NCBI RefSeq assembly: GCF_013181195.1
Contig: NZ_SMZP01000001.1
Span: 682,001-746,000 of the forward strand
Origin: Caulobacter sp. RHG1
GTDB lineage: Bacteria; Pseudomonadota; Alphaproteobacteria; Caulobacterales; Caulobacteraceae
Length of the DNA: 64,000 bases
Reading direction: 5' to 3'
The position numbers and the translations under genes were made by a program. Every line of letters starts with the position of its first letter. Position 1 is the stretch's first letter. Positions 6,483 through 52,564 of the stretch are shown here, one piece after another. The notes beneath the pieces were generated by a model. The model made no database searches. It saw nothing but the letters and a program-made list of their open reading frames with translations, and had not been told where the DNA came from.

Positions 6483-6507
6483 AGCGCTCCACAGCCCAAG
6501 ACCACAG

Positions 6508-6539
6508 AAAGCCGCCCGGCGTCCGTCGGGCGGCTTTTT
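6508..6539 (+). terminator. Intrinsic terminator of sppA
   Basis: Stem GCCGCCCG/CGGGCGGC (6511-6518 and 6527-6534), extended by AAA/TTT pairs, followed by TTTTT. Confidence 0.9.
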
Positions 6540-6741
6540 CGTGTGCGTGAGGCAGTCGTGTTCGGATGAGCGGCCCCTGCCCCTCCCCGCCCCGTTCAGC
6601 CCCCGCGCGAAGGCGCGGGGTGTAGTGCGCCTCGCCAGGCTTCAGATGACGCAGGAACCCAGCCAGCTCTTCTCCTGGCTTGCGCCTACGCCTCTGCGCA
6701 AGGACGTGGCCGGCCATCGCCTCGCTGATCAACGCGCAAAG

Positions 6742-6770
6742 AAAAACGGCGGGCTCTTGCGAGCCCGCCG
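6742..6770 (-). terminator. Intrinsic terminator of the Oar-like receptor gene
   Basis: A perfect 10-bp stem CGGCGGGCTC/GAGCCCGCCG with a 4-nt loop. On the minus strand it is followed by TTTTT (complement of 6742-6746). Confidence 0.9.
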
Positions 6771-6797
6771 CCTTCCGTTCGCTTCCGCTGGAGCGGA

Positions 6798-9700
6798 TTA
6801 GAACTGCAGATCGAAGCCGAAGCGGATCGACCGCGGCGTCTGGTAGGTCGTCGGAGCCATGTAGTCCAAACGAGCCGTGTTCAGGGCGCTTTCCCCGAAC
6901 TCGTTACGCTCCGACACGCCCTTCAGGTTGAAGACGTTGAAGATGTCGGCGCGCAGGACCAGCGAGCTGTCATCCGAGCCGATCATCGGCAGGCCCGGGA
7001 CGAACTTCGACGGCACGGTGTAGCGCACCGAAGCGTCGAAACGCGTGACCCAATCGCTGTCGAAGGCCGTACCGCGGTTCACGAGCTTGCTGCCGCAGTA
7101 GCGCGAAGCCGCACCGTAGCTCGAGTTAGCCACTTGCGAGTCCGGAGCCGAGCCGTCCGGCGCGAAGCCGATGCAGCCGTACTTACGCGGCGAGATCACC
7201 GACAGGTTGCCACCGAACAGCAGGTTGTCGGTCAGAGCATACGAACCGAACAGCTTCAGCTGGTGACCACGGTGGTTCGGCAGCAGGCCGTACGAACCGG
7301 GGACGAACGCCAGGTGGTCGAAGTCGACGGTGATGCCGGCGTCGGCTTGGCCGTTGTCCGAACGCGCCTGACCTTCGAAGTTACCCTTCGATTCCGAGAC
7401 GACGTACGACCCTTGCAGGCCCCACTTGCCATCGAACGAACGCTCGAAGTTGAACTCGAGGCCGAGGTATTCGCGCTTCACCTTCGGGAAGCCCAGTTGG
7501 GCGGCCGTGACGGTGATGGTGCGGATCTGGGTCTCGCCCGGCAGCGGGTCGCTGAGGGTGATCACAGCGTCCTTGCCCGGGTTGATGATCAGGTACTGGT
7601 GCTCACCACCCCAGATGGCGGCGCAGCCCGTACCGCCGGCGCCGCTGGCGCCGCGGACCGACGGATAACCGTTGGCCAAGCACCAGTTTTGGATGCCGTA
7701 GTCGAGCAGGGCGTCTTCCGACACGCGGCCCAGGGTGCGGTAGGTCAGGTTGACGCCAGCGCGCCACAGCGGGCCGAAGCGGTGCTCGTAACCCAGGATG
7801 TATTCGTCCTGATAGGTCGAACCCAGGTTCTTGGCGGCGACGGCTTCCGGATCCGGCGAGCGACCGTTGTTACGGGTGACGCAGGCATACGAGTTGACCG
7901 GAGCGATCGAACCGACGGCCGCGACGCAGGGCTGCAGCGTGCCGGGGTTCGAGGCGGAACCGATGATCTGAGCGCCGAGACCCGCGGTGGGCAGGCCCGT
8001 GGTGGTGCTCAGGTTGGTGAACGCCAGAGCGCCGCCAGCCGGCAGGAAGAACTGCGAGTTGTCGATGGCCGGCGAAGCCGCGCGGAACGCGGTGTTCGAG
8101 GCGACCGGCACGAAGGTGCGGCCGTACGAGCCATAGATCTTGTCGTTACGATCGCCGAAGACGTCGTAAGCGAAGCCCATGCGCAGACCAACTTCGTTGT
8201 CGAAGCTGGAGAACACTTGGCCGTTCGGGTCGGCGACGGCGAACTGGTCGCGACGCACGCCCAGGTTCAGGGTCAGACGATCGGTGATGTCCCAGGCGTC
8301 CTGGATGTAGATCGCCTTGTTGACGCCGTCGAAGCCGCCACCGGTTTCGAACTTACGCAGCTCGACATATTCCTGGTTCGCAGCAACCAGACCGCCGAGA
8401 GCGCCGCCGGCCGGAGCGCGACGATAGATGTAGTTGTAGCCGCCGTTACGACGGGTGAACTCGGTCAGCGTGGTGTTTTCGCGGTCGTAACCGGCGCGAA
8501 TGTGGTGCGAACCGAACAGCTTGAAGTACAGGTCGACGTCGCCGCGATAGAATTCACGTTCGGCGATGAACGGGAAGGTGCTGGCGGCGGCGGTCTGACG
8601 GCTCAGGGTCGTCGTGGAGCCACGGGCGTCTTGAACCAGCGGTTCGCCGATCAGGTTGCCGACGTTGGCGTTGTCGACTTCGCTGCGGCCGTAGGCGGCC
8701 GAAACGGTCAGCCAGTCGGTGAAGCTGCCGGTGTAGCGAGCGACGTAGTTCTCACCACCTTGGTACAGCGTGTTCGCCGCCGTGCGGCCGCCGACGATCT
8801 GGTCGGTGTCCAGCGAGTAGCGATAGACGTCGCTCTTTTGCTTACGGCTGGTGTCGAAGTAGGTGAATTCCAGGTGCTGACGGTCGGTGATGTAGCCGTC
8901 CAGCTTGAAGGCGTAGAACGGGTCCGACGTACGGAACTTGCTCACGTTGCTTTGAGCGCCAGCGGCCGGCTGGAAGATGTTGGTGGCCGACTGGGTTTCC
9001 AGGCTGTTGAACGAGGCCAGGCCGTAGAAGAACAGGTGGTCCGGGATGATCGGGCCGCCGGCTTCGACGATCAGGCTCTTGTCCGTGCGCTTGGACATCG
9101 AGTTGCGCGTGGTCAGAGCGTTCGGAGCCTGCTCGCGCAGCGAGTTGGGCTCGTAGTTGCCGTGCAGGGCGAAGGTGAAGTCGTTCGAGCCCGACTTGGT
9201 GACGGCGTTGATCATGGCGCCGGTGCCGCGGCCGAATTCGGCGGGGAAGCCGCCGGTCTTCACTTCAACCGACTTGTAGAATTCGAACGGAACGGTAGCG
9301 CCACCGATGCCGTTGACGAAGTTCGTGATGTTCAGGCCGTTGACGTAGAAAACGTTTTCGCCGAGCGACGAACCACCGATGGCGGCTTGCGACTGGCCCT
9401 GCTGCGTGAAGGCCGCGGCCGAGTCGCCGGGGATGGCCGACGGAGCCAGCAGCGTCAGAGCGGTGACGTTCCGGGCGATCGGGACTTGCTTGGCCAGGGT
9501 TTCGACGTCGACGACGAGGCCGGTCGTGGTGTTGGCGAAGTCCAGCTGCGGGTTGGCGGTGCCGGTGATGACGATTTCCGAAACGGCTTCGCCTTCACCC
9601 GCCAGGGTGAAGCTGTAGTTCGAGGCCGAGCCGGCGCGGACGCGGACGTTGCCGTCGTTGGCGGCGACGAAGCCACCCTTGTTGATCGAAACCGAGTAGC

Positions 9701-9998
9701 CGCCCGACGGGATCAGGGCAGCGCGGAATTCGCCCGACGAGTTGGTCGTCAGGTTACGCTCGAAGCCCTGGGCCAGCGACTTCACGACGACGGTCGCGCC
9801 GGCGATCGGAGCGCCCGAGGTGTCGTTGACGGTGCCGACCAGCGTACCGTTTTGATAGTCCTGCGCGCTGGCCACGGCCGGAGCGAAGGTAGCGACCGTC
9901 AACGCAGCCATCGGCGCCGCCACGGTGGCGATGCCGGCGAGCAGCGTGGACGTCAGCAGGCGCGAGCGCGCGCTACCCTTGGTGGAATTCGTATTCAT
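6798..9998 (-). CDS. TonB-dependent receptor with N-terminal carboxypeptidase-regulatory-like domain (Oar-like)
   Basis: A 1066-residue outer-membrane protein. A long signal peptide ends near PAVASAQ. A CarboxypepD_reg-like beta-sandwich follows (GTLVGTVNDTSGAPIAGATVVVK), then a plug region (about 140-260) and a large 22-strand barrel ending in a C-terminal Phe (RSIRFGFDLQF). This order is that of Oar-type receptors, whose ligands may be proteins, peptides or glycans. The ligand here cannot be told. I chose ATG at 9996-9998 because GAGGGGA lies 6 nt upstream. It is a single gene with its own terminator. Confidence 0.92.
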   Translation of the reverse strand: MNTNSTKGSARSRLLTSTLLAGIATVAAPMAALTVATFAPAVASAQDYQNGTLVGTVNDTSGAPIAGATVVVKSLAQGFERNLTTNSSGEFRAALIPSGGYSVSINKGGFVAANDGNVRVRAGSASNYSFTLAGEGEAVSEIVITGTANPQLDFANTTTGLVVDVETLAKQVPIARNVTALTLLAPSAIPGDSAAAFTQQGQSQAAIGGSSLGENVFYVNGLNITNFVNGIGGATVPFEFYKSVEVKTGGFPAEFGRGTGAMINAVTKSGSNDFTFALHGNYEPNSLREQAPNALTTRNSMSKRTDKSLIVEAGGPIIPDHLFFYGLASFNSLETQSATNIFQPAAGAQSNVSKFRTSDPFYAFKLDGYITDRQHLEFTYFDTSRKQKSDVYRYSLDTDQIVGGRTAANTLYQGGENYVARYTGSFTDWLTVSAAYGRSEVDNANVGNLIGEPLVQDARGSTTTLSRQTAAASTFPFIAEREFYRGDVDLYFKLFGSHHIRAGYDRENTTLTEFTRRNGGYNYIYRRAPAGGALGGLVAANQEYVELRKFETGGGFDGVNKAIYIQDAWDITDRLTLNLGVRRDQFAVADPNGQVFSSFDNEVGLRMGFAYDVFGDRNDKIYGSYGRTFVPVASNTAFRAASPAIDNSQFFLPAGGALAFTNLSTTTGLPTAGLGAQIIGSASNPGTLQPCVAAVGSIAPVNSYACVTRNNGRSPDPEAVAAKNLGSTYQDEYILGYEHRFGPLWRAGVNLTYRTLGRVSEDALLDYGIQNWCLANGYPSVRGASGAGGTGCAAIWGGEHQYLIINPGKDAVITLSDPLPGETQIRTITVTAAQLGFPKVKREYLGLEFNFERSFDGKWGLQGSYVVSESKGNFEGQARSDNGQADAGITVDFDHLAFVPGSYGLLPNHRGHQLKLFGSYALTDNLLFGGNLSVISPRKYGCIGFAPDGSAPDSQVANSSYGAASRYCGSKLVNRGTAFDSDWVTRFDASVRYTVPSKFVPGLPMIGSDDSSLVLRADIFNVFNLKGVSERNEFGESALNTARLDYMAPTTYQTPRSIRFGFDLQF

Positions 9999-10172
9999 CA
10001 ATATCCCCTCTGAACGCGGCGCAGGCGGCAAATCGGACATGTCCCCCTAGAAACTTTGTCCGACCTGGAGCGGAAATCCGCCGAAGTGCGCCACGAGATC
10101 ACTGGTGTCCCGGAAAAGATTTCCCCCGGTTGAGGCGACGTTAGGAGCGCCTGCTGCTCAGGGTCAATTGTC

Positions 10173-10188
10173 ATTGCAAATTTGTAAT
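10173..10188. promoter_or_regulatory. Near-palindromic AT-rich operator candidate
   Basis: ATTGCAAATTTGTAAT pairs at seven of eight symmetric positions. It lies about 175 bp upstream of the receptor start. The shape suits an iron- or metabolite-responsive repressor, but the factor is not identifiable. Confidence 0.35.
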
Positions 10189-10414
10189 CGACATCGCGCT
10201 CAGCTGTCGCAAAAACGCCACAGCGTCGCCGCTTTTCCGATGATCGGCGATCGCCAGACAGACGCAGGCGAGGACGATCTTGCCCAGGACCATGATTTAG
10301 CGGGTAAATTTCACATTCAAAGAACGTGGATTCCGACCAGCGCGCACGGCCAGAAATCTGAAGATTAATTGCGCCCGCATGTTGACTTGGGAGAAATCGA
10401 TCCCCCGAACACCC

Positions 10415-10426
10415 TCACATGTGTGA
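10415..10426. promoter_or_regulatory. Near-palindrome TCACATGTGTGA
   Basis: Five of six symmetric positions pair. A T-run follows at once. It may be a regulator half-site pair; the evidence is only symmetry. Confidence 0.25.
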
Positions 10427-10587
10427 AAGTTTTTTGAAGACACCGCTAACCGAAAGTATTTTCCGCCCTCAAAAGATGGGTTTGTGGGCGCCATTCGAGC
10501 GCCCCTGACCATTGCCTAGGCGCCGCATGGCCGTGAAGATGCGTCAGCGGCGAAATGCGCCGCGGCAGTACGAGCCTCGACCCGTCC

Positions 10588-10995
10588 ATGAGCGACTTCC
10601 GCCCCGTCACCGACTCTTTCTCGGTCGCCCCGCAGGTGAGCGAGGCCGACATGGCGCAGGCCGCGTCGGAGGGATTCGTCCTGGTCATCAACAATCGCCC
10701 GGATGGCGAAGACCCCAGCCAGCCTTCGAGCGCGACGATCGAGTCGGCGGTCCGCGCGGCGGGGATGGACTATCTGCACGCGCCCGTGCGCGGGGGCCCG
10801 ACCCAGGAGCAGGTCGACGCCGTCAAGGCGGCGATAGAATCGGCCGATGGCAAGGTGCTGGCGTTCTGCCGCTCGGGCACGCGCTCGATCGTGACCTGGT
10901 CGATCGGCCAGGCCCTGGCGGGTGAAGACCGCGAGACCCTGATCAGCCAGGGCCGTCAGGCGGGCTATGATCTGTCGGGCGTACTGCCCGGCTGA
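10588..10995 (+). CDS. DUF442/TIGR01244 rhodanese- or phosphatase-like protein
   Basis: This 135-residue protein is a DUF442 domain, the small sulfurtransferase/phosphatase-like fold found fused to beta-lactamase-like hydrolases (Blh). The active-site loop FCRSGTRS holds Cys94 and matches the six-residue rhodanese loop C-R-x-G-x-R. PVRGGPTQEQVDA is a family hallmark. I chose ATG at 10588 because the protein then starts just before the conserved FRPVTDSFSVAPQ. A metallo-beta-lactamase-fold hydrolase lies 215 bp downstream, the partner domain in Blh fusions. Confidence 0.8.
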   Translation: MSDFRPVTDSFSVAPQVSEADMAQAASEGFVLVINNRPDGEDPSQPSSATIESAVRAAGMDYLHAPVRGGPTQEQVDAVKAAIESADGKVLAFCRSGTRSIVTWSIGQALAGEDRETLISQGRQAGYDLSGVLPG

Positions 10996-48289: not shown

Positions 48290-48352
48290 GACTCTCTCGT
48301 CCCTTGAAGGAAGTGTTGTCCGAGCCGTTCCGGAGGATTAAATGGAGGAAGG

Positions 48353-48372
48353 CTCCGGATACATATTCGGAG
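48353..48372. promoter_or_regulatory. Palindromic operator candidate between SDR and TetR genes
   Basis: A 20-bp element with arms CTCCG and CGGAG and inner ATA/TAT: 8 of 10 symmetric pairs match. It lies between the divergent starts (48289 and 48396), a common layout for TetR autoregulation. Confidence 0.5.
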
Positions 48373-48395
48373 GCACCCTCCGCTTTTCAAGGCCG

Positions 48396-48980
48396 ATGTC
48401 CGAAGATTCCGAGCTCAAGATCCGAAAGCCTCGCGCCGACAGCCTGCGCAATCGCGAGCTGCTGCTGACTGCGGCCAAGGCGGCCTTCACGGAAACCAGC
48501 GCCGACGCCCCCCTGGAGGATGTCGCCCGGCGCGCAGGCGTGGGCATCGGCACGCTCTATCGCCACTTCCCCACTCGCGAGGCGCTGGTGGCCGCGGTCT
48601 ATGCGCGCGAGATCGAACAGCTGGCCGCCTCGGCCGACAGCCTGCTGGCCGAGCGCACGGCGGGCGACGCCCTCGGGGCCTGGCTGGACCTCCTGATCGA
48701 TTACATGGCCACCAAGCGCGTGGTGGCGCCGGCCCTGCGCGCCGATCCCGGCGAGGGCTCACGGATTTACGCCAGCTCCGGCGCGACTATCCTCTCGACC
48801 CTGCAACGCCTGACAGAGGCCGCCCACGCCGCCGGCGACATCCGCCCCGACATCGGCTTCGAGGACATCCTGCGCATGATGAGCGGCCTGTCCCAAGGCT
48901 TCGAACAGCCCGGTTGGGAAGCCGGCGCCCGACGCCTGCTCAGCGTGATGATGGCGGGGCTGCGGGCCAGGCCGAGCTAA
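48396..48980 (+). CDS. TetR/AcrR family transcriptional regulator
   Basis: A 194-residue repressor. The helix-turn-helix (about 14-62) contains RNRELLLTAAKAAF and AGVGIGTLYRHFPTREALVAAVY. ATG at 48396 leaves the palindrome upstream. However, ATG at 48342 has a better ribosome-binding site (GGAGG, 6 nt away) and would add 18 residues covering the palindrome. The divergent SDR is the likely target. Confidence 0.85.
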   Translation: MSEDSELKIRKPRADSLRNRELLLTAAKAAFTETSADAPLEDVARRAGVGIGTLYRHFPTREALVAAVYAREIEQLAASADSLLAERTAGDALGAWLDLLIDYMATKRVVAPALRADPGEGSRIYASSGATILSTLQRLTEAAHAAGDIRPDIGFEDILRMMSGLSQGFEQPGWEAGARRLLSVMMAGLRARPS

Positions 48981-49002: not shown

Positions 49003-52000
49003 CTACTCTGCCAACTCGAACCCGTGCTCCCAGATGATGCGGTTGAATTGCCGCACGGCGTCGGGCTCGACGCGGGTCTTGGCGAACAGGGTCGACGCGG
49101 AGGTGGGATCCTTCAGTTCGCAGACCCCCAGCAACCTGGCCAGCGCCGGATCGGCCCGCAGGCGTTTGACCTCGGCCTCGACCGCAGCCTTGCCGTTCTT
49201 GTCCTCGCCATCGGTCAGGGCTTTCATCGCCGCCTTCGCCTCCGCGCTTGACCCGTAGGCAGCGTCCAGCAGCAGCGGCGAGCGCGCCAGCTTGCGCCAG
49301 GTATCGGGCCATTCCGTCGAGAGCGCCACCCACAGGGCCAGCTGCCGCCAGCGCGAGGTGCTCTCGGTCGTCGAGAGCGGACCGGGCTGTTCGTACTGGA
49401 AATACTGCGCGCCGACGGTGGCGAACAGCGGGAAGGCGTTGATCACCCGCTTGATCTGCCGAGGGTTGTTGGGCAGCAGCGGCGCCAGGCCGCCCAGCAC
49501 CTTCTCGACCCGCTGGGTCAGGGCGGCGTCGCTGTTGGTGGCCTGGGTCACCCCGCTGGACGCCGCGACGCGAGCCGCCTCGATGTCTTCGCCTAGCGCT
49601 TCCTGCTCCTCCAGAACAGTCTTCAGAACTTGCTCTTGCTCGGATGCGGACCCGCCCCCGGTCAGCACCGCCTCCACGGCCTGGGTCGCAGCGTTGGGTG
49701 CGGGCGGCGGTGATGGGAGCGGGTAGTCGTGCTTTCGACCGCCCACCTGTTTGAGGGTGAATAGGGCGCGGCTCTCGGGGGTCATGGCCGGCAGGACGAA
49801 CGAGAGCTGGAAAATCTTCTCCACGAAACGCGCGCCCAGCTTGGTCTCCGGCCCGACCGCCAGGCTGCCCATGTCGGCGTGGGCCACCGAGTGAGCCGTC
49901 TCGATCCAGTTGCGGTCGCCCAGGATCATCACGAACATCCGGGGCGACTGCAGGATGGTCTGGAAGCCACGCAGCATCTCGACCACCATCTTAGGCGGGC
50001 AACGATCCAGGTCGTCGACGATCAGCAGGATCGGTCGTCGGCCTACGGCCAGGATTCCCTGGATCGTCCGACGGAAGCGCGCGATCGGATCGCCGACGCC
50101 GACACGCCGCGTCTCGCCCGAGAAGTCGATATCGGGGGCCAGCGATTGCGACAGGGCAGAACCCAAGGTCACCAATCCTCCGCCCAGAAGGGTGAGACCC
50201 AGCATCACCAGCTCGGCCATCTTCTTGAAGTCATCCAACGTCATGCCGCCAAGCACCCGGCCCGGCGTACAGTTCGGGAGGGCGGTCGGGCAGGCGCTGG
50301 CGGTCAGAGGGATAATCGTCAGCAAAAACCACACGCCGCCCCCAGCAAGGGCGGTCCATGCCAGTTGCTTGATCAGCCGAGTGTTGGTGATCCGATAGAC
50401 CAGTCCGAGGACAAGCGCCCATCCCCATCGGCCCAAAGCCCGTGTCATGCCAACGAGCGCACGAAGGCGCTCGCTGGGCGTCGCGCGGGAGGCGATCAGA
50501 ACCTTCGCGCAGTGGCGGAAGTCCTCCAGCATCCCGTCGCGCACCGCCTTGGCGACGTCCAGATAGATCTGCCACCAGGGCGGCTCGACATCCTGATAGC
50601 GCCAGGCATTGGAGCGCACGATGATCCACGGCCGCCGCCCCTCGCGCGGATGCGGCTCCCACGTCGTCGCCGAATAGTCGCCCAGGAAGATCCCGTCGAA
50701 CGAGGCCTTCTCGGGCGGCTGGTCCCCGGCCTTCAAGCCCAGTTGCCCGTACAGGAAGTGATCGGCCGCGACCTTGGCCCCGCGCGGATTCAGCGCCCGA
50801 GCGACGAAATTGGCGAAGGTTGTCTTGCCCCCGCCCCACGGCGCGTCGACATGGATGATGAAGGTGTCATCGCCCCCGCCCCCACGACCGGATCGGCCAT
50901 CCGGCGGGTCATCGGCGCTCGACCCGATGCGGTTGCGCTTGCACCAGATCAGATGCAGCCGCCGCGCCAACGCCAAGGCCAGGCTTCCCCGCTCCAGCAG
51001 ATCAACCTCCTCGGCCGGCGCATCGGTCAGGTAGTCGGAAGCGCCATCGAAGGTCGCGTCGGGCGGAGGCTGCGGCCCGATATGCGGATGCCGCCGCAGA
51101 GCGGCGTCGATCGTCTCGCCGGCCGCAAGGGCGCCCTCCGCATCGATGTCGGACAGAGGGATGCTTGGGACACCGGCCTCCCCCAGAGCCCTCGACAGGA
51201 TGGCGGCCTGAGCGCTGTCGATCGCATGGACGCCCCCGCCGGCGCTCTTCAACAACGGGCCTGCCTGCGCCTCGACACGGGCGCGCGGGAACAGGTTCCG
51301 ATCGAAGACTTGCGTGATCAGAACCGGCCAGCGACGACGCCCCTGATTGTCGGTGAACTCCCGCTCGGGACCAGCCGCCAGCACACCAACCGCGACAATC
51401 GCCCCGCGACCGCCTTCCTCACCGGACAGGAGCACGACGGTATGACCGCGCCTGAATCGCAGGAGATGGGGCTGGCCGTTCTTGATCCAGAACAGGATCT
51501 TGCCGGTCTCCAGCGCCATCAACCAGTCGGCGTTGCGCTGGTCGGGATTGGCGTAGAACACCGAGGCATTGACGCTCACGCGATCGCGAGGCGGCCGAGA
51601 CCGCGAAGGAGCCGCGCCGCCGTCGGCAGGGGCCTTGGCGCCGAGCGGCGGCGGAGAGGGCCGCGCCTCGACTTCCGGCGTCGAAATGACGACACCGACG
51701 CCGGGCCGTTCAGCCCACCTCGTCGCCTCCAGCGCGCGTCGCGTGACCTGAAGGCTCTGGTCCAGGCTCAACCCGCCGGAGCCCATCCCCATCAAGGGCA
51801 GCCAAAGGCTGCTCGCTCTGGTGATCCTGAAGTCGTTCAGGGCGCTCGTAAGATTGACGAAGAGGGCTTCATCCGTGTCCATCTTCAGGCCGACGGTCAC
51901 GACAAAGCACAGGAGGTTCCCCCCTATGCTGACGATCGCGTAGCCCTGCGCGAGATCCCTGGCGGTGGGGATGACGCGGGTCGTGAGATTGAGGCTCTCC

Positions 52001-52119
52001 AGGACGGCGGTATTCAGCGCCCCTGGCGTCCCCGCCGAGTCGCACGACATGAAGATGACATCGCCCTGCGGCGGCGCCGCCTCGATGATCGTGATTCCGC
52101 CCGCCGCGCTCGCGTCCAT
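49003..52119 (-). CDS. KAP family P-loop NTPase with macro-like and EVE/PUA-like N-terminal domains
   Basis: A 1038-residue multidomain protein. Residues about 5-150 resemble a macro domain (GDVIFMSCD near the start, SLWLPLMGMGSGG about 104-116). Residues about 180-285 resemble an EVE/PUA-like modified-base reader (VFYANPDQRNADWLMALETG, then LLRFRRGHTVVLL, then IVAVGVLAAGPE). From about 375 it is a KAP NTPase: Walker A APWGGGKTT (426-434), SNAWRYQDVEPPWWQIYLDV, three hydrophobic segments between the Walker motifs (about 562-577, 588-607, 635-655) and Walker B ILLIVDDLDR (697-706). ATG at 52119 has GGGGGA 7 nt upstream. KAP proteins have been linked to phage defence; a role here is inference. 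Confidence 0.8.
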   Translation of the reverse strand: MDASAAGGITIIEAAPPQGDVIFMSCDSAGTPGALNTAVLESLNLTTRVIPTARDLAQGYAIVSIGGNLLCFVVTVGLKMDTDEALFVNLTSALNDFRITRASSLWLPLMGMGSGGLSLDQSLQVTRRALEATRWAERPGVGVVISTPEVEARPSPPPLGAKAPADGGAAPSRSRPPRDRVSVNASVFYANPDQRNADWLMALETGKILFWIKNGQPHLLRFRRGHTVVLLSGEEGGRGAIVAVGVLAAGPEREFTDNQGRRRWPVLITQVFDRNLFPRARVEAQAGPLLKSAGGGVHAIDSAQAAILSRALGEAGVPSIPLSDIDAEGALAAGETIDAALRRHPHIGPQPPPDATFDGASDYLTDAPAEEVDLLERGSLALALARRLHLIWCKRNRIGSSADDPPDGRSGRGGGGDDTFIIHVDAPWGGGKTTFANFVARALNPRGAKVAADHFLYGQLGLKAGDQPPEKASFDGIFLGDYSATTWEPHPREGRRPWIIVRSNAWRYQDVEPPWWQIYLDVAKAVRDGMLEDFRHCAKVLIASRATPSERLRALVGMTRALGRWGWALVLGLVYRITNTRLIKQLAWTALAGGGVWFLLTIIPLTASACPTALPNCTPGRVLGGMTLDDFKKMAELVMLGLTLLGGGLVTLGSALSQSLAPDIDFSGETRRVGVGDPIARFRRTIQGILAVGRRPILLIVDDLDRCPPKMVVEMLRGFQTILQSPRMFVMILGDRNWIETAHSVAHADMGSLAVGPETKLGARFVEKIFQLSFVLPAMTPESRALFTLKQVGGRKHDYPLPSPPPAPNAATQAVEAVLTGGGSASEQEQVLKTVLEEQEALGEDIEAARVAASSGVTQATNSDAALTQRVEKVLGGLAPLLPNNPRQIKRVINAFPLFATVGAQYFQYEQPGPLSTTESTSRWRQLALWVALSTEWPDTWRKLARSPLLLDAAYGSSAEAKAAMKALTDGEDKNGKAAVEAEVKRLRADPALARLLGVCELKDPTSASTLFAKTRVEPDAVRQFNRIIWEHGFELAE

Positions 52120-52231: not shown

Positions 52232-52564
52232 TTATAGCCCTTCCTCATCCACGTAGATCAGCACGGGCTTGCCGCGCGACAGCGGCTCCCAGCCGGCTTC
52301 GATAGCCGAGGCGATGGCCTTGGCGACGATGCGCACGGGGACCTGCGAAGGCTTCAGCGGCGGGGCGCTGAACTTGGGCTTGGGGCCAGGCGGGAACTCC
52401 ACCAAGGCCTCGCGCTGGCCCTCCTTGTGGCGGACGGCCAGCACCTTGCCGTGCCGCTCCGACGGGTCGTAGTTCCATTGCGGCAGACGGTGCAGCCGCC
52501 AGACATAGAATTCGCCGTCGACCTCGATGTCGAACTCAACGGTCAGCTTGGTGGTTTTGGCCAT
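52232..52564 (-). CDS. Hypothetical 110-residue protein
   Basis: An N-terminal beta-like segment (LTVEFDIEVDGEFYVWRLHRL) is followed by a charged middle and the end IVAKAIASAIEAGWEPLSRGKPVLIYVDEEGL. There is no signal peptide or membrane segment. No family was recognised. GAGG lies about 11 nt before the ATG. It lies between clpB and the KAP gene, all on the minus strand, but a terminator separates it from clpB and 112 bp separate it from KAP. Confidence 0.7.
   Translation of the reverse strand: MAKTTKLTVEFDIEVDGEFYVWRLHRLPQWNYDPSERHGKVLAVRHKEGQREALVEFPPGPKPKFSAPPLKPSQVPVRIVAKAIASAIEAGWEPLSRGKPVLIYVDEEGL

Follow-up and report, generated by a model that had tools for sequence, protein, structure and literature searches.

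What might a protein do that joins a macro-like domain and an EVE-like domain to a KAP NTPase in a single chain, and could it serve in defence? This question is raised by one gene within a stretch of 64,000 nucleotides from Caulobacter sp. RHG1 (contig NZ_SMZP01000001.1, positions 682,001 to 746,000; hereafter the window, in whose numbering all coordinates without a locus name are given). Its open reading frame (ORF) was confirmed at 49003..52119 and lies on the minus strand, with the ATG at 52119 and the stop codon at 49003-49005, and encodes 1,038 amino acids. We find that the gene is a sporadic insert at a chromosomal site of variable cargo and, as judged from the sequence of the protein and its relatives, its product probably has a role in defence against viruses. 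The more specific reading, to which we give an even chance, is that a single protein of the KAP NTPase class serves as both sensor and effector, is anchored in the membrane and most likely defends the cell against phages or plasmids.

The only Pfam domain over its cut-off in the window protein is KAP_NTPase (PF07693) at residues 419-897 (49429..50865; this and the further features of the gene are on the minus strand), with 71.8 bits against a cut-off of 20 (E 7.3e-20). KAP NTPases have hydrophobic segments between their Walker A and Walker B motifs, and this hallmark, pointed out in a preliminary description of the locus, is present: Walker A (APWGGGKTT) occupies residues 426-434 (50818..50844; motif scan position 428) and Walker B (VDDLDR) residues 701-706 (50002..50019), and two hydrophobic segments, called by hydropathy only, lie between them at residues 596-614 (50278..50334) and 637-655 (50155..50211). 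The same scan flagged a third segment, residues 60-78, inside the macro domain. A sequence search of the PDB with the window protein gave no match. KAP ATPases are known from a number of anti-phage settings, and PADLOC matches to PifA (2e-10), QatA (1.3e-9) and PDC-S20 (2.9e-8) were obtained, all of them confined to the KAP region. That to PifA (37.9 bits) is best over positions 164-256 of a profile of 720, and the score with the NCBIfam QatA equivalog, likewise limited to the KAP region, was 39.1 bits, short of its cut-off of 600.

The N-terminal region, residues 1-152 (51664..52119), is predicted to adopt a macro fold that is divergent by sequence. It aligns with the N-termini of other KAP proteins at 47% and 41% identity, and a nine-row alignment (24 to 47% identity to the window row; one row is the second segment of the relative L023, described below) gave an AlphaFold2 model with a mean predicted local distance difference test (pLDDT) of 89.4 and a predicted template modelling score of 0.86. 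Comparison of this model with the PDB by Foldseek returned 172 matches at E <= 0.001, led by the macrodomain of Thermus aquaticus DarG (4.2e-7), and the DarG macrodomain chain was superimposed by VIA-align with Z 14.7 and a root-mean-square deviation of 2.9 over 139 aligned residues, at about 16% identity. Most of the 50 Foldseek rows listed name a macro domain in their titles; designed hydrolases, Vtc4 carrier fusions and similar rows contain macro domains as well. The macro-like N-terminus of the preliminary description thus holds by predicted fold and as a domain common to relatives. We name it a divergent macro-fold domain, not a member of Pfam Macro, since the curation threshold of that family (PF01661) is not reached in the window protein (11.9 bits against 22, E 0.71); the same part of the Pfam profile gave sub-threshold matches in two relatives (0.07 and 0.25). 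The domain is rare, being found with the macro profile in 2 of 385 sampled genomes of the class, the window's own included. As a separate observation, another gene of the window's genome (G000:C3:5777-6106, plus strand, locus L094) matches Pfam Macro over the cut-off, with 62.1 bits.

Across the nine rows, T75, P108, G111, G113 and S122 are invariant, three of which (P108, G111 and G113) are glycine-loop positions. This invariance, along with the fact that the closest solved fold is the macrodomain of the DarTG antitoxin, would suit an alternative in which the domain is an ADP-ribose-removing enzyme and the protein, in the manner of DarG with DarT, reverses or controls ADP-ribosylation that a separate toxin carries out, the KAP part serving just to position or regulate the domain. 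However, the identity to DarG is low, the macro domain is fused here to the EVE-like and KAP parts, and relatives with EVE and KAP exist without any macro domain. In addition, neither a DarT nor any other ADP-ribosyltransferase was recognised by eye among the reading frames around the gene, of whose products only five were scanned with profiles. Taken together, we regard this enzymatic alternative as quite improbable.

For the second domain (residues 186-316; 51172..51564), the EVE/PUA-like character claimed in the preliminary description was recovered through intermediates. Neither Pfam, EVE (PF01878) included, nor a hidden Markov model (HMM) of seven canonical EVE proteins detects the window's own segment, so the case for EVE rests on intermediate profiles. 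The structure prediction proposed in the preliminary description, which succeeded for residues 1-152, was uninformative here, the fold of the single segment sequence having a pLDDT of 36.8. The first intermediate is a Rhizobium plasmid protein (P0003; genomes, loci and proteins of our sets are given as G, L and P numbers), which lacks the macro domain and is 29% identical over residues 185-531 of the window protein, which span the second domain and the start of KAP. A two-row profile then reached genome G570 with E 1.5e-7 (2 of 398 genomes of a phylum sample, including the window's own), where protein P0012 consists of PG_binding_1, an EVE domain over the Pfam cut-off (23.6 bits against 23, profile positions 1-142 of 145) and KAP. 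With three rows, G075 (3.3e-8) and G401 (7.1e-7) were added, making 3 of 385 class genomes with the window's own; G075 has an EVE match below threshold (profile positions 1-139, 0.0025) and G401 none. When aligned to the canonical EVE alignment with hhalign, the five-row profile gave E 1.5e-6 and a probability of 90%, compared with 5.8e-4 and 29% for three rows, 0.078 for two rows, and 0.54 for a control of macro against EVE. An HMM built from the four EVE-KAP relatives without the window protein found residues 186-316 of it with E 5e-5, or 1e-6 when just the segment was searched; among 2,000 shuffled sequences the best value with this HMM was 0.064. The identification of the second domain as EVE by way of these intermediates is supported, not proven.

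Direct alignment of the window segment with the second domain of the relatives L022 and L023, with no intermediates, put the sequences in visibly wrong registers. The second domain of L022 and L023 itself looked PUA/EVE-like by eye; it has no Pfam match and gave hhalign E values of 0.041 and 0.019 against EVE-KAP profiles, and is not counted as EVE.

With the three domains supported in this way, so is the sensor-plus-ATPase layout suggested for the protein, and it recurs in varied form among the relatives. Ten loci were found with macro or EVE profiles alone (L018 to L024, G570, G075 and G401; L021 encodes the same protein as P0009, found also in G258), while the window gene, P0002, P0005 and P0003 come from whole-protein searches. 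At all ten profile-found loci KAP is in the same reading frame, according to Pfam for nine of them (P0009 standing for L021) and to BLAST for L019. What precedes KAP varies: macro only in P0009/L021; macro and a Clp_N-like domain in P0002 (Pfam Clp_N 20.9 bits against 20.7) and in L019, nearly the same protein, an arrangement that P0005, L018, L020 and L024 resemble by eye, where Pfam lists no Clp_N; macro and a second domain without a family in L022, to which L023 adds a second macro-like segment recognised by alignment; EVE-like only in P0003; PG_binding_1 and EVE in P0012; EVE-like and a region without a family in G075 and G401; and macro and EVE-like in the window protein. The hydrophobic segments between the Walker motifs number two in P0002, P0009, P0012, L018, L019, L023 and L024 and one in P0005, L020 and L022; none is found in the pieces P0003 and P0004. 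L022 and L023 share 52% identity in their first 300 amino acids but only 23% over 247 columns of their KAP parts, and the C-terminal part of L023 is 29-30% identical to P0009 over 616 columns, which shows directly that sensor and ATPase parts have been exchanged. The relatives retain KAP and swap their N-terminal modules.

The EVE-like-KAP gene of the Rhizobium leguminosarum plasmid (L010:2015-4580) carries an annotation as two reading frames that overlap, and a near-identical copy (98.7%) on another plasmid, L082, was likewise aligned in two pieces. In G075 (L099:4609-6609 and 6504-10592) the EVE-like-KAP gene, of about 1,360 amino acids, overlaps the directly preceding gene for a hydrophobic protein, in which pentapeptide-like repeats were seen by eye. 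Searching plasmids with the window protein gave four records, all from Rhizobium and none covering 80% of the query, and a whole-protein scan of genome contigs produced 36 pattern matches and no relative.

The neighbourhoods of these relatives, whose survey had been proposed in the preliminary description, were informative in some cases. In Zobellia uliginosa (L022) the first base of the macro-KAP gene is also the final base of the hsdM stop codon, and hsdS follows two bases after its end and is in turn followed by hsdR. These neighbours are assigned by Pfam as N6_Mtase (6.7e-98) with HsdM_N, Methylase_S (2.3e-40), and HSDR_N (1.2e-36) with SWI2_SNF2, and the best PADLOC families for all three are of type I. 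In the flavobacterial locus L023, an ORF of 125 amino acids (7609-7986) directly 5' of the macro-KAP gene matches HsdM at both ends and not in its middle; it is apparently the product of an internal hsdM deletion after which the accessory gene was retained. An Xre-RES pair and a HEPN-nucleotidyltransferase ORF are located about 4-6 kilobases (kb) upstream in L018, with other ORFs intervening, and the conjugative Rhizobium plasmid carries, next to its EVE-like-KAP copy, an IS481 transposase and a gene with a RelA/SpoT domain. The surroundings of P0005, G401 and G075 were viewed in part only. Unlike its relative L022, the window gene lies outside any hsd operon, between a tetR gene and a 110-amino-acid ORF beside clpB.

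The type I context of L022 and the EVE-like domain could also be taken to mean that the protein acts on nucleic acid and not at the membrane, with a KAP ring formed on DNA, modified DNA being found by the EVE-like domain, and exclusion or silencing following. In its favour, DNA of both single- and double-stranded form is bound by QatA, also a KAP protein, whose assembly seems to be a heptamer or octamer (PMC13279940). The two hydrophobic segments between the Walker motifs count against this alternative, as does the lack of any nuclease domain among the Pfam matches of the window protein, and we consider it unlikely.

The distribution of the gene in the genus was analyzed in 75 genomes. Matches at E <= 0.001 were found in seven of them, and the whole protein in one, the window's own (G000); G003 has the macro-KAP relative P0005, elsewhere in the genome, and in the other five only the KAP part is matched. 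Of the neighbours given in the preliminary description, a TetR/SDR pair and clpB, Pfam identified TetR, SDR and ClpB, though the 110-amino-acid ORF (52232..52564, minus strand; no Pfam family over cut-off) intervenes before clpB. This ORF, present in 66 of the 75 genomes, and the tetR gene (48342..48980, plus strand; TetR_N and TetR_C_43 by Pfam), present in 28 at E <= 1e-20, converge on the window gene and border the cargo site. From 16 stretches fetched, ORFs were listed in five, among which G026 has no such tetR at that place, and the sequence of the site was read in two more; the comparison excludes G050, where the ORF match is partial and not convergent, and G061, where the ORF lies at the end of a contig. 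The site, taken as tetR and the ORF convergent within 3.3 kb, is readable in seven genomes. It holds the window gene in G000 and is nearly empty in G011 and G012, with 12 and 128 base pairs between the tetR and ORF matches, respectively. A 766-amino-acid AAA_13 gene occupies it in G038 (L066:3352-5652, minus strand; PADLOC PDC-S06 5.9e-144, with a weak PrrC match), a PemK/MazF-like toxin gene in G030 (L068:3578-4096, minus strand; Pfam 9.4e-9) and an ORF of 194 amino acids without Pfam match in G025. The cargo therefore includes one defence-candidate gene and one toxin-like gene, plus others. The gene is thus not one that is strictly conserved in synteny and has no ties to defence loci: it is found in one of 75 genomes, at a place of variable cargo, and has a homologue in a type I operon.

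There are also data that weigh against a defence role. The cargo in the seventh genome, G013, is an ORF of 829 amino acids that resembles a TonB-dependent receptor by eye, so the place is not solely a defence site. The neighbours of L019, L020, L021, L024 and P0002 resemble, by eye, genes of metabolism, transport or general maintenance, and the neighbourhoods described above are individual cases and not an enrichment. No match to the window protein was found in phage records, and none was confirmed in viral contigs with macro, P0003 or EVE queries, so that no mobile carrier was seen. Finally, the base composition of the gene (0.674) is the same as that of the window (0.675), and a recent foreign origin is therefore not supported.

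The housekeeping-looking neighbours at five loci and the receptor-like cargo would be expected if the protein were a stress or envelope regulator, encoded by an accessory gene with no role against phages. This could also be in line with the relative in G570 (L081:6190-8586, minus strand), whose gene, with its peptidoglycan-binding domain in front of EVE and KAP, adjoins two genes, one of the PG_binding/amidase type and one for a PhoD-like phosphatase. Nevertheless, the position of the Zobellia copy inside a type I operon and of the L023 copy behind an hsdM remnant, the presence in one of 75 genus genomes and the exchange of modules argue against such a regulator, which seems to us a rather remote explanation. 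At several homologue loci no obvious defence neighbours were seen by eye, and the defence role that had been proposed is partly supported, as probable and not as established. It is the role we favour because of the sporadic presence in the genus, the variable cargo site, the module exchange, the relative in a type I operon and the PADLOC matches of the KAP region to PifA, QatA and PDC-S20.

How does this protein compare with known systems? PifA is a KAP protein of plasmid F involved in phage exclusion; it shares the KAP-region match, the only part compared, and the window protein adds macro and EVE-like domains in front. QatA of qatABCD is a KAP NTPase like the window protein, with KAP-region matches in both NCBIfam and PADLOC, but no qatB, qatC or qatD was recognised by eye among the reading frames near the window gene. 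In modification-dependent restriction, an EVE reader is likewise fused to an NTPase in putative defence proteins, the defence NTPase partner there being McrB-like (PMC7641849). The latent anticodon nuclease PrrC is encoded within the EcoprrI type I operon, and when restriction fails to stop phage T4 because the phage resists it, PrrC brings about the sacrifice of the infected host (PMC3874165). Like the macro-KAP gene of Zobellia, its gene is an accessory one in a type I operon; the window protein differs from PrrC in being a KAP ATPase whose gene lies outside any hsd operon. Additional sensor or effector domains are already known from NTPases of the KAP or STAND type, and those targeted by diversity-generating retroelements have been proposed as conflict-system sensors too; these targets carry CLec domains, and macro and EVE are not named with KAP in the account given of them (PMC10907252). 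In a comparative study, a KAP P-loop NTPase was noted in further defence-like neighbourhoods, with a role in anti-phage immunity cited from earlier work (PMC10853773). The main text of the EVE survey contains the terms 'KAP' and 'macro' 0 times (PMC7641849). No description of macro-KAP or EVE-KAP proteins was found in searches of the open-licence PMC literature, in agreement with the earlier impression that this is not a named system, and a description elsewhere is possible.

As for the gene itself, no promoter was found by a scan, and the yield of a terminator scan was no higher than that from shuffled sequences.

The ways in which KAP ATPases sense infection remain, to our knowledge, largely open. 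For the window protein as a membrane-anchored sensor-effector, we infer a mechanism from the domain layout, from the Zobellia arrangement, which follows the same logic as that of PrrC, from the features of QatA, and from the KAP neighbourhood study cited above. The macro domain would bind a ligand derived from ADP-ribose or NAD, which could be free or carried on a protein or nucleic acid; the EVE-like domain would bind a modified base. Once one reader or both had bound, the KAP ATPase could assemble or act at the inner membrane, and its action might disturb the membrane or block invading DNA, by which the infected cell would be stopped. In restriction operons the protein might constitute a second line of defence, as PrrC does. 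QatA affects the range of its system, and its deletion spares defence against some phages (PMC13279940).

Beyond the single protein, we tentatively put forward, as a possibility short of an even chance, that there is a class of KAP-centred immune receptors in which interchangeable macro, EVE, Clp_N-like and peptidoglycan-binding readers are mounted on a membrane ATPase, present on their own in chromosomal cargo sites or in type I operons as a backup, and reading ADP-ribose and base marks made by the host or the phage. A sensor that is visibly exchanged on a constant ATPase offers a direct route to what switches KAP on, be it ADP-ribose through the macro domain or modified bases through EVE, and such a class would bring together, within a small group of genes, type I restriction, base modification and ADP-ribosylation.

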